A stretch of DNA of 20,940 nucleotides from a virus, in the IMG/VR virus record IMGVR_UViG_3300021960_000645, positions 1 through 20,940 of that record, one strand, 5' to 3'. Both the position numbers and the translations under genes were made by a program. The notes below the pieces were generated by a model. It did not search any database. It was not told the origin of the DNA and saw only the letters and a program-made list of their open reading frames with translations. This document shows positions 3,947 to 14,780 of this stretch, piece by piece. Position 1 is the stretch's first letter; each line of letters starts with the position of its first letter.

Positions 3947-4068
3947 CTTTAGGTACTTACGTAGATAAGCCTAAAAAGAGAAGAGCGGGAGTACACTCTA
4001 AAACTAAACAGTCTAAAAACAAAAACTCTAAAAACTACTCTAAACCGTACAGAGGACAAGGAAGATGA
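3931..4068 (+). CDS. 45-residue highly basic conserved phage protein
   Basis: A short gene overlapping its upstream neighbour by 16 nt and its downstream neighbour by 4 nt (ATGA). It reads MAKGLTLGTYVDKPKKRRAG and then a Lys/Ser/Asn-rich stretch ending YRGQGR. About one third of the residues are Lys or Arg, with no acidic residue except D12. I recall similar short proteins with a 'GTYVDKPKKKR...YRGQGR' pattern in marine T4-like phages, which supports it as a real gene despite its size. The charge suggests nucleic-acid binding, perhaps RNA or packaged DNA, but no fold or function is known. Confidence 0.75.
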   Translation: MAKGLTLGTYVDKPKKRRAGVHSKTKQSKNKNSKNYSKPYRGQGR

Positions 4069-4586
4069 AATTAACAGACTTAATATTCGAAGAAGAAAAT
4101 CAGGTAGCATCAGCTGCTAAAGCTATAAATAATGCTATCACCTCTATTGATGATAGTATGCACTACGGTGTATTTGCTAAGGCAGTAGCCCACATACTTA
4201 AAGACGAATACGGTTCTCACAATATTAAACCTTTTATGGAAACTTTACACAAGGAGTTAGGAATAGGTGAAAATTTAACAGAGGACTTCAATAAGTTTGA
4301 TAAAGAAGCTAAGGAACTTCAAAAAGAATTGGAGGACACTTACAATAGAAATGACATTTATGTTTCAATGGGGCAGTATAGCGGTAAAGATAGAGGGTAC
4401 GGTAAAGTTAGTTTTATGGTCAGAGACTTTGCAGGAATACCACCCGCTGAATGGAAAAATGTTAAAAATTTTCTTGAAGCAAAAGGATACGAGATAACTC
4501 AAGATTCTAACTTCTATGATGAAGATGATGACCGTAGATGGTATCCCCATTTAAATTTTGAATTTGATATCAATGAAGCTATCTAA
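4065..4586 (+). CDS. Conserved phage protein with capsid-targeting-like leader (MKLTDLIFE)
   Basis: A 173-residue protein, translationally coupled to the small basic gene. Its N-terminus, MKLTDLIFE|E, shows the I7-x-E9 pattern also seen at the starts of the next gene and of the kinase gene at 6920. T4 internal head proteins carry such a peptide (MKTYQEFIAE) and lose it to the prohead protease. After it comes a helical segment, YGVFAKAVAHILKDEYGSHN, with a strongly conserved look. The C-terminal half alternates strands and acidic loops (FYDEDDDRRWYPHLNFEFD). No catalytic motif is visible. Packaging in the head is an inference from the leader only; P1' here is Glu, not the usual Ala or Gly. Confidence 0.75.
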   Translation: MKLTDLIFEEENQVASAAKAINNAITSIDDSMHYGVFAKAVAHILKDEYGSHNIKPFMETLHKELGIGENLTEDFNKFDKEAKELQKELEDTYNRNDIYVSMGQYSGKDRGYGKVSFMVRDFAGIPPAEWKNVKNFLEAKGYEITQDSNFYDEDDDRRWYPHLNFEFDINEAI

Positions 4587-6540: not shown

Positions 6541-7149
6541 ATGAGGAATATTTGGTTACTTGCATTTATTTTCGTATTTTTAGTAAGCTGTAGTTCACTA
6601 CAGTTACAACTGTCAACATTAAATTATGTCTCTTCTAGAGCTAGTTTAAGTACGACAGTTCGACCGAGAGTAAATACATTTGAAAGTTACTATGACTTTA
6701 ACTATAATAGTTTCTTATATAGAAATGGTTACTACTGGAACAATTGGAACTATAGGTATAATTGGTGGTTCCCAAGTTACGGGCTGGAATATGACTATTG
6801 GCTTTATAGTAGTACCCCTCTTTTATATAGACCGTACATTAGACCTACGGTTGAACCAAGGCCAATACCAAGAAACAGAGAATTATTTAGACCAAGAACA
6901 AGAGTAAACGGAAGAAGAAATGAAACTATCAACACTAATCTTAGAAGCCCGAGACAAACCCAAACTCGTAGTGATGGCGGGCGGAGCTGGAGTAGGGAAG
7001 TCTTACCTTCTCAACCAACTAGACCTAGGATCTCTACCCCTAGTCAACCCAGACAAATACGTAGAGGATCCCAACAGCCCAGCATACAACAAACTAACAT
7101 CAGGCGTAGCTCTAGCCAACAAGGAAGCAGAAGACCTATCAAGCAATAA
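6541..7149 (+). CDS. Predicted lipoprotein, Tyr/Trp/Asn-rich then Arg/Pro/Gln/Ser-rich; overlaps kinase gene by 230 nt
   Basis: A 202-residue protein. The N-terminus is a type II signal peptide: MR, a hydrophobic core WLLAFIFVFL, and lipobox LVS-C17-SS, so the mature protein should begin at a lipidated Cys17. With Ser at +2, outer-membrane sorting is likely by the Enterobacteria rule. About residues 48-100 are dense in Tyr, Trp and Asn; the rest is low-complexity Arg/Pro/Gln/Ser. The last 77 codons lie over the start of the kinase gene in another frame. The codon shift in the kinase gene, which ends with this stop, argues that the reading frame is under selection and not accidental. Possible roles are superinfection exclusion, host-surface change or an outer spanin; none is shown. 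TATTTATTTATATG leads directly into the start. Confidence 0.72.
   Translation: MRNIWLLAFIFVFLVSCSSLQLQLSTLNYVSSRASLSTTVRPRVNTFESYYDFNYNSFLYRNGYYWNNWNYRYNWWFPSYGLEYDYWLYSSTPLLYRPYIRPTVEPRPIPRNRELFRPRTRVNGRRNETINTNLRSPRQTQTRSDGGRSWSREVLPSQPTRPRISTPSQPRQIRRGSQQPSIQQTNIRRSSSQQGSRRPIKQ
6920..7149 (+). other. Dual-coding segment: lipoprotein C-terminus over kinase N-terminus
   Basis: Two frames are open on the same strand. Kinase wobble positions are first positions of lipoprotein codons. In the first 76 kinase codons I count 7 ending in T and 25 ending in C; in the next 76 codons I count 35 ending in T and 9 in C. The switch falls at the lipoprotein stop (7147-7149). That is expected if the first-position C/A bias of CAA, CCN, AGA and AGC codons in the lipoprotein constrains the kinase frame. 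Confidence 0.7.
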
Positions 7150-7846
7150 AGAATCTTTTGTTTGGGATACTACTGCATCTAATCCTTCTAAAGTAAGAGA
7201 CATACTTAAGAAAGGATATGACGTCTATATGGTAATGGTATACACTCATCCTGTTATTGCTTATCTTTCTAACGCTAAACGTAAAAGACAGGTACCTTCC
7301 TCAGCAGTTTTTTCTACATGGAGAAATGTTTACCAGCTTATAGAAGATTACAACAAAATGCTTAAAGGAAATCTTTCTATCTTTGTTAACACTAGAGGAG
7401 GAGAATTTGATAAGTACATAGAAGAGTTTAATACAGCTGCAAAAAATGGAGCAGCCGGCATATCAGATTACCTAGAGAGACTAAACGAAAAAGAAAACAT
7501 TGGTGGTTCATCATTTAGAACACCGGTAGAACTTTCTGGCCAAGAAGAACAAGAATTCTATAATGCAGTTAAAAATATAGATTACGATACGGAAGACTAC
7601 GGTGAGGATAGAGTATTAAAGAAGTATTTTCAAGATTGGTACAGCAAGAACGGTACAGGACCTGGTGATGATAAGTTAAATCAAAAACTTTCCACATACC
7701 GTAAACAAAAACAATCTGCAGCTGAAAGAGAAAAACAAGTTTTAGATAATATAGGTGAAATGCTATTTAGCCCAGTCTTCCAAGAAAAATTAAAGCATTC
7801 AACACCACAAGAAATAGATCAAAAAGTACAAGAATTTTTAGCATGA
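6920..7846 (+). CDS. P-loop kinase, zeta-toxin-like, with capsid-targeting-like leader
   Basis: A 308-residue protein. Walker A is GGAGVGKS at 21-28, preceded by strand KLVVMA. It is followed by NPDKYVE (about 43-49), placed like the substrate-binding segment of zeta-type kinases, then VWDTTAS, and an Arg-rich lid KRKRQVPSSAVFSTWRNVY. This order matches zeta toxin/AAA_33-type kinases that phosphorylate small molecules or sugars; no antitoxin gene is evident beside it. The first nine residues, MKLSTLILE|A, fit the T4 capsid-targeting and gp21 cleavage rule exactly (I-L-E|A), which might mean that the kinase is packaged. The last ~100 residues are a helical, charged extension ending QKVQEFLA. 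The start at 6920 lies inside the lipoprotein gene; a later start would lose the leader but keep Walker A only from Met19. The next gene overlaps by 4 nt. Confidence 0.85.
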   Translation: MKLSTLILEARDKPKLVVMAGGAGVGKSYLLNQLDLGSLPLVNPDKYVEDPNSPAYNKLTSGVALANKEAEDLSSNKESFVWDTTASNPSKVRDILKKGYDVYMVMVYTHPVIAYLSNAKRKRQVPSSAVFSTWRNVYQLIEDYNKMLKGNLSIFVNTRGGEFDKYIEEFNTAAKNGAAGISDYLERLNEKENIGGSSFRTPVELSGQEEQEFYNAVKNIDYDTEDYGEDRVLKKYFQDWYSKNGTGPGDDKLNQKLSTYRKQKQSAAEREKQVLDNIGEMLFSPVFQEKLKHSTPQEIDQKVQEFLA

Positions 7847-11373: not shown

Positions 11374-11387
11374 TAAATAATTTGCAA

Positions 11388-12869
11388 ATGACCTATCAAG
11401 AAATTAAAGAGCGTTTAACTAAATGTGAAAACACATTAGAGTCCTTAAAAAACGGCTCATACAAAAATAACACTTCAATTAATGTAAAGGAAACTGCTCA
11501 GAAACTAGAAATGCTTCGAGAATCCCTTCAAAGCCAACTTTTAGAAGCTGAAAAAGGTATGGTAGCAACCGATGATGAAAATAAAGCTAAGGAATTAGCA
11601 GATAAAGGAGTCAACGTAAAACTTACCTCAGAAATGAAACCCGGTGATCCAGAAGACTTAGAAAGAAGAAGATTCGAAAGATTAACGCCTAAAGATCAAG
11701 AGACTATTGCAAAAATACATGCTTTAATGCAAAATGCTAATAAGATGGAAGGTGAAGACGATGACAGAGATGATGATGAATTATCTCCTGAGGAGTTAGC
11801 AAATAAATATGCTGGTTCCCCAATGCACCAATTACCAGGTATGGAAGAAGAAGAGCTTCCAGTAGCAGATGAAGTACCAGAAGAACCAGAAGCAGAAGGA
11901 GATCTTGACGTAGGTCATCAAGATGACGAACCTTCAATGCTTAAAAAAGATTTATATGATATAGCCACATATGCTGCAAAACTTTACAAACAGTTAGACA
12001 AATACGATCAGCATGACGGTGAAGTTGACTTTCCACATTGGTGGCAGAAGAAAGTTACCTTATCTAGAGAGTACCTATCCTCAGCACAACATTATTTAGA
12101 AGCAGAAGAAAAACAACCTGCTTTAGATCAATTAGCTTTAGAAGAAGGAGTAGAAGAAGCTTCTGCAAATGCAATTAAAAAAGAATATGATGCTTTAGTT
12201 GGCAAAATGAAACAACTAGCACAGCATTACAAAACTGCAGAAGGTGAAAAGAAAGAAAAAATTGTAGCTGCATTAAAACAACATACTGCTCGTAAAAAAG
12301 AACTAGAAGATCAATTAGATCAAGCTGTAGCAGGTACAAATAGGAACCAAGAACTAAACGAAAGAGGTAATAGTTACCTACGAGCTTTAGTTAGCGTCAT
12401 TAAGGATATGGCTGCAAACTTTGACGGAGATGAGGTAGGTGCAGCAGAAGAAGCAATGGAAGCTATTGCCCAAGAATATGATATTCCATTTGAATTTGGA
12501 GCTGGACCTTCTAGAGTACAGGAACTTTTTGGTTCTAAAGTTAATTATGATGAACTTATAGGACCTATTGTTAAAAGGTTCCACGAACTAAAAAAATACG
12601 TTAGCAAAAAAGAACCGGATGCACTGGACGATCTCCAGCAAGTAATTCGAGCTTTTGAAATCTTTGATGAAAAGATGTCTTACGGTACTCATATGGAGCT
12701 AGAAGAAGCTAAAGGGGGTAAATATGTAGTTCGTCCTTGTTCGGCTAAAAATACTCCTTGGGCAGTTTGGAAAACATCTGCTGATGGAGAAAACGATAAA
12801 AGAATTAAAGGCTTTAAAACTAAACCAGAAGCTCAAAAATTTGCAGATGAAAAAAACGCAGCTGAATAA
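11388..12869 (+). CDS. Large acidic, helical virion-like protein with FPHWWQ segment and DUF2188-like C-terminus
   Basis: A 493-residue protein; I start at the ATG at 11388 and not at the TTG two codons earlier. The N-terminal ~60 residues are a coiled coil. Around residues 120-180 is a very acidic linker (DDDRDDDELS, GMEEEELPVADEVPEEPEAEG). Then comes a helical module with KKDLYDIATYAAKLYKQLDK and VDFPHWWQKKVTLSREYLSS, which I recall from marine phage proteins. Next is a Lys/Glu coil, a helical section, and a C-terminal ~50 residues (YVVRP..., WAVWKT, GFKTKPEAQKFADEKN) that look like a DUF2188-type fold. L-E-E|A at 438-441 just before that fold fits the prohead-protease rule. The size, acidity and location before the head genes suggest a head-internal or scaffold-like role, unproven. 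Confidence 0.72.
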   Translation: MTYQEIKERLTKCENTLESLKNGSYKNNTSINVKETAQKLEMLRESLQSQLLEAEKGMVATDDENKAKELADKGVNVKLTSEMKPGDPEDLERRRFERLTPKDQETIAKIHALMQNANKMEGEDDDRDDDELSPEELANKYAGSPMHQLPGMEEEELPVADEVPEEPEAEGDLDVGHQDDEPSMLKKDLYDIATYAAKLYKQLDKYDQHDGEVDFPHWWQKKVTLSREYLSSAQHYLEAEEKQPALDQLALEEGVEEASANAIKKEYDALVGKMKQLAQHYKTAEGEKKEKIVAALKQHTARKKELEDQLDQAVAGTNRNQELNERGNSYLRALVSVIKDMAANFDGDEVGAAEEAMEAIAQEYDIPFEFGAGPSRVQELFGSKVNYDELIGPIVKRFHELKKYVSKKEPDALDDLQQVIRAFEIFDEKMSYGTHMELEEAKGGKYVVRPCSAKNTPWAVWKTSADGENDKRIKGFKTKPEAQKFADEKNAAE

Positions 12870-13710
12870 ACTTATATTAGAAGCATACGCTGAAGTATTA
12901 GCAGAGCTCAATGAAGCACCAAAAGGTCTTTTCTACATTAAGGTAGCTGTTAGAGATGCTAGAAAAGCCCTAACCATCATTGATGACAATCCAGCATACA
13001 GTAAAGCGGTTGAAATAAACGGAAGTGACACTTATTACTTAACCGATGAAGAATTAGCTTACGACTTGCTAATGGATTTCGGAGCCTACGACATTGAAGT
13101 AACCGATAGTAATATGGAAGAAGGTTATTTTGAAGGAGCTTTGAATGAATCACTCTTAGATGAGGTGGAAGATGAGCCAGTACCAGAAGAAGAACCTGAT
13201 ACAGATGCTCCTGAAGAGACAGTTTTAGAAGATGCTACAGATACTATTCTAGGACGATTTCCAACTCTAAAAGCTGCTATTACTAAACTCCAGACAGAAG
13301 ATTTCAAAGAGTTTGTAGATTCTATTGATTGGATATCACCTCGCCCTACCTCATTTAGAGTTAATCTAAAAAATGGTCAAGATTATATTTTAAAATGGAC
13401 CGGTAAAACTTTTGAAGCTCAAATAATGGGCAAAAGATATTACTTGAACAGAATCGATGACTACCAACAGGCTTTAGACAAATTAGCTCTCCTTTATAGA
13501 GAAGCTCCAATGAAAGGAGCTGGCGAAGAGGAAGCTTCCGGAGAAGATATCGGGTCTGCCGATACCGGTGGAGGGGAATTTCCTGGAGAAGAAGGAGGAG
13601 CCGGAGGCGGAGAAGACTTTGGAGGAGAAGAAGGCGGTGGAGAAGAAGGAGGAGAAGATCTTTCTGATGAACCAATTGATTTTGAAGCAGGAGAAGAACC
13701 TGAAGCATAA
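12847..13710 (+). CDS. Acidic conserved phage protein with Gly/Glu-rich tail and LILE|A leader
   Basis: A 287-residue protein. I chose the ATG at 12847, which overlaps the previous gene by 23 nt, because it gives MKKTQLNKLILE|A; the open frame upstream to 12784 only shadows that gene. Residues 10-13 (I-L-E|A) and 21-24 (L-N-E|A) both fit the prohead-protease rule. A helical and acidic region follows (DEVEDEPVPEEEPDTDAPEE). Then comes a compact domain, FPTLKAAITKLQTEDFKEFV to YYLNRIDDYQQALDKLALLY, with conserved-looking strands (FRVNLKNGQDYILKWTGK). The last ~65 residues are low-complexity Gly/Glu. Probably virion-associated; function unknown. Confidence 0.72.
   Translation: MKKTQLNKLILEAYAEVLAELNEAPKGLFYIKVAVRDARKALTIIDDNPAYSKAVEINGSDTYYLTDEELAYDLLMDFGAYDIEVTDSNMEEGYFEGALNESLLDEVEDEPVPEEEPDTDAPEETVLEDATDTILGRFPTLKAAITKLQTEDFKEFVDSIDWISPRPTSFRVNLKNGQDYILKWTGKTFEAQIMGKRYYLNRIDDYQQALDKLALLYREAPMKGAGEEEASGEDIGSADTGGGEFPGEEGGAGGGEDFGGEEGGGEEGGEDLSDEPIDFEAGEEPEA
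13516..13707 (+). repeat. GGA/GAA low-complexity coding tract
   Basis: Imperfect runs of GGN and GAA/GAG codons encode the Gly/Glu tail of the preceding protein. The tract is purine-rich on the + strand, so its complement yields a long leucine-rich open frame that is not a gene. Confidence 0.7.
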
Positions 13711-14780
13711 TGAACATAACAGATAAGCTATATACGGAATGGGCCTGGAGAACTAAAACAGGTGTACCGGATATTAATAATCCGGAAGATAAAGCTATAC
13801 TAGATAATATTATCTCAGAACTTACTAATACTGATGGTGAAATTTCTAAAAAAGAAGTCATACAAGCTATTCAGAACGGAGACTTTACTCCTGAGCAACT
13901 TAAAAATATACTCAATGGTATTTCTGGGGTTGCTTATAAGAAGGATGTGTTAGAGTACCTGAGTCGGCAAGGTAAAGCTATAGATACAATAAAAAAGTAT
14001 ATTTACAACGAGTTAGTTGAAAATGGAGACATACAAAACTATCATACCACTATCGGGAATTTCCCTTCCTATAGTAGTTTAGGGTCTTCTGGTAATCTTT
14101 ATTCCTTGTTTAGTAATAAATTCTCACAGGAAACTTTAAAGTACTTAATGGACAAAAAACCTGCAATGGGTAATATTGCAACAGGTAAAGGCGAAATCTT
14201 TTTAGCAACTTTAATTGATGATGTATCTTCTGACTCTCCTGATGGAGATATCTCTGCAGGCGGTAAAGGTATCGAAGTTAAGAACAAAGGTGCTAAACCT
14301 GCTGGTCAAAAGTTTCAATTTGGTAAGAATGTAGATAAAATAATGGTTGATTCTATTGTTAAAGAAGTTAACAAATTGATAGACAGTCCTATACCTACGA
14401 GATATAGAGCTAGACCTTTTCATAGAATACAGTTAATTATTAACGAAGCATTAAAACAGAACCCGGGATTAACAGATGAAATTTTAAGCATAGCTGATAA
14501 TACAATCAATAATGTATACCCCGGTATTGATTTAACAGGATTAAGTATTAAGGATTACAAGAAGGGAAATAATTTTGACGCTAATAGTTTTGAGCTTGCC
14601 TTTGTTAAACGTATTGTTAGAGCATACATCCAAACCGAAGGATTTGAAGAAATATTATTTCTAGACGACTCATCTGGGGATTATGTAAGAGTACCAAGTT
14701 CTAAAATTGAAAATTTAATTGGTAATAAAATTACAGCAGTTATGAAAGACGGTCTTCCAAGATGGTCATATAACTTCTAA
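13710..14780 (+). CDS. PD-(D/E)XK nuclease-fold protein upstream of terminase
   Basis: A 356-residue protein starting at a TAATG junction. The N-terminus (LYTEWAWRTKTGVPDINNPED) has a conserved look; I recall similar beginnings for proteins placed before the terminase in marine T4-like phages. The centre carries a restriction-endonuclease-type active site: E162 in TGKGEIFLATL, D180 in DGDISAGG, and E189-x-K191 in GIEVKNKG. The spacing D-x8-E-x-K is right for a PD-(D/E)XK enzyme. The C-terminal half is helical and ends DGLPRWSYNF. It may act on DNA during packaging or be a head-associated nuclease. It is not a recognisable small terminase, although it fills the position where one might be expected. 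Confidence 0.75.
   Translation: MNITDKLYTEWAWRTKTGVPDINNPEDKAILDNIISELTNTDGEISKKEVIQAIQNGDFTPEQLKNILNGISGVAYKKDVLEYLSRQGKAIDTIKKYIYNELVENGDIQNYHTTIGNFPSYSSLGSSGNLYSLFSNKFSQETLKYLMDKKPAMGNIATGKGEIFLATLIDDVSSDSPDGDISAGGKGIEVKNKGAKPAGQKFQFGKNVDKIMVDSIVKEVNKLIDSPIPTRYRARPFHRIQLIINEALKQNPGLTDEILSIADNTINNVYPGIDLTGLSIKDYKKGNNFDANSFELAFVKRIVRAYIQTEGFEEILFLDDSSGDYVRVPSSKIENLIGNKITAVMKDGLPRWSYNF

Follow-up and report, generated by a model that had tools for sequence, protein, structure and literature searches.

We analyzed a 20,940-nucleotide (nt) stretch of viral DNA, hereafter referred to as the window (positions 1 to 20,940 of the IMG/VR entry IMGVR_UViG_3300021960_000645, part of one virus record), in which a lipoprotein gene runs on the same strand into the start of a kinase gene. 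The lipoprotein open reading frame (ORF; 6541..7149, + strand, 202 amino acids) encodes a signal peptide with the lipobox LVSC-S, a Tyr/Trp/Asn-rich middle, a Pro/Arg linker and a disordered basic tail. The second ORF (6920..7846, + strand, 308 amino acids) encodes a P-loop kinase that was placed in the Zeta_toxin/polynucleotide-kinase superfamily by PF06414, AlphaFold and Foldseek. A first-pass annotation, made from the sequence alone, had reported that the two genes share 230 nt, and this is exact: in the dual-coding overlap (6920..7149, + strand), lipoprotein residues 127-202 are specified by the DNA of kinase codons 1-77, read in another frame. The ORF coordinates also confirmed that the first position of each lipoprotein codon coincides with the kinase wobble position across the overlap.

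Third-position usage changes abruptly within the kinase gene. Codons 1-76 comprise 7 T-ending and 25 C-ending codons and codons 77-152 comprise 35 and 9, respectively, so that the annotated counts were reproduced exactly on recount. The excess of C over T in the best 76-codon stretch reached +18 in the kinase, and none of the other genes of the window exceeded 0. When fitted by maximum likelihood, the change point in C/T usage fell between kinase codons 75 and 76 (strength reached by 0/5000 permutations), in agreement with the annotated switch at the lipoprotein stop, which corresponds to codon 76.7. Moreover, no stop interrupts the lipoprotein frame, compared with a mean of 9.1 expected from synonymous resampling of the same kinase protein under normal codon usage; zero stops occurred in 0/5000 resampling draws.

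Conservation and loss of the overlap among relatives

Scans of viral contigs yielded kinase matches in 245 sequences, counting the window itself; 139 of these were distinct, and 129 of the distinct sequences contained a complete kinase, with kinase identity down to about 50%. A frame was scored as open even with one or two stops close to its end, and by this rule 117 of the 129 distinct complete homologues have an open lipoprotein frame extending about 200-239 nt into the kinase. Normal codon usage would put about 9 stops in this stretch, and the other forward frame contains 9.4 stops per sequence; the alternative frame is thus open beyond what the main frame dictates. The overlap was retained across about 42 lineages of marine phages (clusters at 85% identity), and an overlap of 212 nt persists even in L245/L246, the loci that diverge most (49% identity to their query). 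Two loci carried lesions in the lipoprotein frame, namely a single stop in the tail at 158 nt (L029, overlap codon about 52) and a frameshift just 5' of the overlap (L023, upstream of 3001), for which sequencing error and recent damage are indistinguishable.

No clear homologue was present in the 50,697 phage records searched with the kinase and lipoprotein queries, in which only weak kinase matches to Pelagibacter phage HTVC008M, Methylophilales and other phages were detected. A kinase profile search of bacterial genomes returned no match, and binned genomes therefore give no evidence of the host. A targeted literature search of incomplete coverage found no description of the lipoprotein/kinase pair.

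The lipoprotein frame was closed in 12 of the 129 homologues, all of which have 5-17 stops in the old frame (5 in L022, where it is still recognisable). The lipoprotein gene is missing in L065 and L147, and in L022, L079/L080, L113-L118 and L150 the lipoprotein stops at the kinase start and has its own tail. Loci that keep the kinase beside a broken lipoprotein frame, which the first-pass annotation had named as evidence against a real overlap, therefore do exist (12/129), yet because the lipoprotein is replaced by a non-overlapping version or missing there, they act as natural knock-outs that support a genuine overlap. With L245/L246 as outgroup, parsimony required 7 changes and assigned the overlap to the ancestor of the sampled family, a reconstruction that is provisional given recombination and the choice of outgroup; L164, near the L113 group, retains the overlap. 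Synonymous divergence between L079 and L088 was 0.42-0.87 in the first 100 kinase codons and 0.06-0.10 in codons 151-250, a contrast that fits recombinational exchange of the lipoprotein and the kinase 5' end as one block.

Selection on the two frames

We further compared codon usage between homologues with and without the overlap. In the former, C/(C+T) of the kinase fell from 0.73 within the overlap to 0.21 downstream of it (117/117 sequences with the higher value inside the overlap), whereas the 12 sequences without the overlap had normal values of 0.27 in the same region and 0.23 in the rest. Since the codon-usage break is present in all homologues with the overlap and lost in those without, we attribute it to the lipoprotein frame. 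Codon usage at gene 5' ends can be unusual, and the overlap does sit at the kinase 5' end, as would be expected if the open frame and the C-ending codons were a by-product of kinase codon choice (special usage or avoidance of RNA structure) and the lipoprotein read on by chance. However, the same 76 kinase codons show normal usage wherever the overlap is absent, and the C/T change point falls at the lipoprotein stop. Conserved RNA structure as a cause of the codon bias was rejected, as none was found in the overlap; an Rfam search of the window also gave no match.

Wobble choice at fourfold sites tracked the lipoprotein codon that it forms. The fraction of T was 0.24-0.53 where the resulting lipoprotein codon is Ser and 0.00 where it is Cys or a stop, the fraction of C was 0.67-0.82 for Gln and 0.00 for His, and G was preferred where it makes Gly or Val and disfavoured where it makes Ala. 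This context dependence refutes an origin in kinase codon choice, which we regard as extremely improbable. In a column-shuffle test, which moves whole alignment columns and so preserves relatedness, Cys, stop, His, Ala and Lys were rarer, and Gln and Ser commoner, than in any of the 2000 shuffles. Selection both keeps the second frame open and acts on the amino acids that it encodes, which implies that the tail is translated.

Relative to normal codon usage, the lipoprotein tail is enriched in Gln, Val, Glu, Gly and Pro; a large part of the signal arises because stop, Cys, His, Lys and aromatic codons are avoided. The annotated explanation, selection on Gln, Pro, Arg and Ser codons of the lipoprotein, was borne out for Gln and Pro, but Ser and Arg occur at roughly the frequencies expected from normal codon usage. 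Synonymous change in the kinase frame was lowered over the overlap relative to the rest of the gene (ratio = 0.75, bootstrap 0.66-0.85), compared with a ratio of 1.05 in pairs without the overlap; the reduction that the annotation had proposed to look for was therefore found, but it amounts to only about 25%. With both frames under coding selection in the homologues and the break tracking the lipoprotein frame, the earlier impression that both genes are real holds.

The modest synonymous reduction, together with residue differences between paired relatives of 28.7% in the tail and 11.7% in the kinase, is also what would be seen if only openness of the frame were selected, either because ribosomes reading through the kinase start adjust kinase expression or because a downstream stop is needed for coupling, with the amino acids of the tail irrelevant. 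We consider this unlikely, as the avoidance of Cys, His, Ala and Lys and the preference for Gln far exceed the avoidance of stops, and the non-overlapping tails of the knock-out lineages share the charge and also lack Cys. Overlapping tails have a mean net charge of +12 and 2 Cys in 8263 residues (both in L239), and non-overlapping tails have 0 Cys and a net charge of +11 to +15; tails of both kinds are disordered.

Several points nevertheless count against a selected overlap. The synonymous-rate drop is modest, and several close pairs have excess change in the overlap, probably owing to recombination. The test of Arg-synonymous A/C wobble choices showed no enrichment (11/232 vs 39/551), and selection at individual Arg sites thus stays unsupported. 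Translation of the tail is deduced from selection, and the arm-like role suggested for it below comes from composition only. The modest drop, the variable tail and the negative Arg test together indicate that composition is conserved more than sequence. Overall, we assign a probability of about 0.88 to a genuine, deeply conserved overlapping gene pair, in which the 230 nt encode the kinase leader and active-site loop as well as the C-terminal 76 residues of the lipoprotein.

For such a pair, the structured kinase would fix most of the shared sequence and the disordered tail would tolerate the outcome, so that the tail keeps its composition rather than its exact sequence. The lipoprotein would be exported and lipidated, and its tail, which is strongly basic and free of cysteine, may serve as a flexible arm located in the periplasm or at the outer membrane. 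The kinase would be translated independently through internal initiation at its own ATG, from a purine-rich site within the lipoprotein frame. A candidate is GGAAGAAGAA (6910..6919, + strand), which lies directly 5' of the kinase ATG, encodes GRRNE when read with it in the lipoprotein frame, and is a possible ribosome-binding region; purine-rich stretches similar to GGAAGAAGAA lie upstream of several homologues too. Some lineages have moved to a non-overlapping lipoprotein whose own tail has the same chemistry, at least one of them probably by recombination-like exchange of the lipoprotein and the kinase 5' end. We are doubtful of a further reading of the overlap as a functional linkage, in which the lipoprotein arm and the kinase share one envelope-directed infection step and the shared DNA holds matched alleles together during frequent recombination at the locus. 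As an example only, a zeta-type kinase packaged via its leader could act on a cell-wall precursor, with the lipoprotein acting at the envelope.

The two proteins and related systems

The annotated clean lipobox at the lipoprotein start was found as LVSC-S, at the end of a signal peptide (6541..6591, + strand) with a predicted lipidated Cys17 (codon 6589-6591). Among the 114 homologues with complete upstream sequence, 111 matched the lipobox pattern. Of the other three, two carry Met-Ser-Cys, which leaves L023, with its frameshift, as the single complete upstream ORF that does not start with a lipobox signal peptide. Cys17 was invariant in a 30-row alignment. The lipoprotein had no match in Pfam, PHROG or NCBIfam, and its fold was not predictable (AlphaFold mean predicted local distance difference test score, pLDDT, = 50.6). 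Its upstream part varies in type and length among homologues, whereas the tail stays. The N-terminal halves of L002, L037, L043, L045, L050, L070 and L079 include at least three module types (SILAVTxxGDTI; TLNHDP..DTIDSYFKLRYKLRNDFRFRWDFAQYA; SSLQF..LSTDLFSINAP) joined to similar tails, which suggests module exchange 5' of the overlap.

The kinase matched Zeta_toxin PF06414 (E = 8e-10, 38.8 bits vs a curated cut-off of 22.3), as did 43/43 aligned homologues (E <= 0.1). AlphaFold modelled it with a pLDDT of 88.9 (< 50 for residues 1-10), and the best Foldseek matches of its core were PSTK, polynucleotide kinase (PNK), zeta and PezT. Two conserved motifs lie within the overlap: the Walker A motif GGAGVGKS (6980..7003, + strand), which the annotation had recognised in the translation and in which G21, G26 and K27 are invariant across the 43 homologues, and an invariant Asn-Pro-Asp in the homologue alignment (N43-D45; 7046..7054, + strand), of which we take D45 to be the probable catalytic Asp of zeta-type kinases by motif comparison. 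The P-loop core, Walker A, and Pfam and Foldseek matches are shared with zeta/PezT toxins and bacterial PNKs (PF06414; PDB 1gvn, 2p5t, 4gp6, 3adb). In contrast to these, identity is < 20% and whole-chain TM-scores are about 0.3-0.4, the phage kinase has an extra helical C-terminal region, and no antitoxin-like neighbour was seen, in that a non-exhaustive search of the genes near the kinase yielded no antitoxin match.

The kinase starts with a putative leader (MKLSTLILE, followed by A; 6920..6946, + strand), recognised by the invariance of Glu9 across the 43 homologues, low pLDDT and similar neighbouring leaders. As the annotation had pointed out, leaders of the type MK-x-x-x-L-I-x-E recur on unrelated genes of the window (4065-4092, MKLTDLIFE; about 4573, MKLSKIILE; 6920-6949; about 12850, MKKTQLNKLILE). 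Together with the invariant Glu9, the recurrence of such leaders on nearby genes points to a possible capsid-targeting peptide that the prohead protease would cleave, as in T4. T4 internal proteins with a capsid-targeting sequence likewise have a short N-terminal leader common to several unrelated proteins (PMC3012670), here with an invariant Glu; the leader sequence differs from that of T4. Leaders of this type also occur on several L157 genes and in Flavobacterium phage immuto, whose major capsid protein carries the form MELNQLFEG.

Embedded and overlapped spanins are marked by a same-strand overlap that involves a lipoprotein gene (PMC6139136), and the lipoprotein tail here is unstructured and contains Pro. 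A diverged two-component spanin, with the lipoprotein as o-spanin beside an inner-membrane partner as in lambda Rz/Rz1 or P2 LysB/LysC, would therefore resemble this locus. As in these systems, a lipoprotein, here putatively of the outer membrane, is encoded in an alternative frame on the same strand, and its unstructured region shares DNA with the partner gene (PMC6139136). However, the lipoprotein gene lies upstream and its 3' end runs over the 5' end of its partner, including Walker A, which is the reverse of Rz/Rz1; the lipoprotein is longer (about 200-330 amino acids) with an aromatic/Asn-rich middle; and the surrounding genes are a primase, an exonuclease, a NadR-like gene and a nucleotidase, with no lysis cassette, a criterion that is weak alone as spanins may lie outside cassettes. 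We rejected spanin membership in spite of the lipobox, since the partner has a confident fold of a soluble P-loop kinase and is not an inner-membrane protein with an N-terminal transmembrane helix and coiled coils, and we regard it as very improbable.

In viral overprinted genes, the overlap-encoded protein is rich in Arg, Ser and Pro and poor in Tyr, C is enriched among the nucleotides, and disorder relieves constraint (PMC6195259). The present pair follows the same composition trends, with a structured and a disordered product sharing DNA, and is a new, deeply conserved instance of this known class. It differs in that the overprinted part extends the terminus of a gene instead of making up an entire new one, and non-overlapping versions with an equivalent tail provide natural controls. 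Large double-stranded DNA phages are not short of genome space, and long overlaps have rarely been documented in them with so much comparative evidence. Here the overlap covers the active-site region of the kinase, and the knock-outs are of two kinds (some have lost the lipoprotein, others retain one that does not overlap), which, together with the wide conservation, gives a direct view of a second frame reshaping codon usage. Selection in the overprinted tail acts on charge, disorder and the lack of cysteine more strongly than on sequence. Tails of this kind may be cut short or overlooked by gene callers with a penalty for overlaps.

Genomic setting

The portal protein encoded in the window shares 72% identity with its counterpart in Flavobacterium phage immuto, and the source is therefore likely a T4-like phage of Bacteroidota. 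The pair is found in a large group of marine T4-like viruses, probably of this phylum. An unrelated gene sits between the exonuclease and NadR genes in Flavobacterium phage immuto. Elsewhere in the window, an internal ATG near 12850 (MKKTQLNKLILEAYAEVL) is probably the true start of the ORF at 12784-13710, a start that would remove most of its apparent overlap with 11382-12869. On the - strand, a 166-codon open antisense frame (13361-13861) faces the Glu/Gly-rich end of the same ORF and is probably a composition effect.
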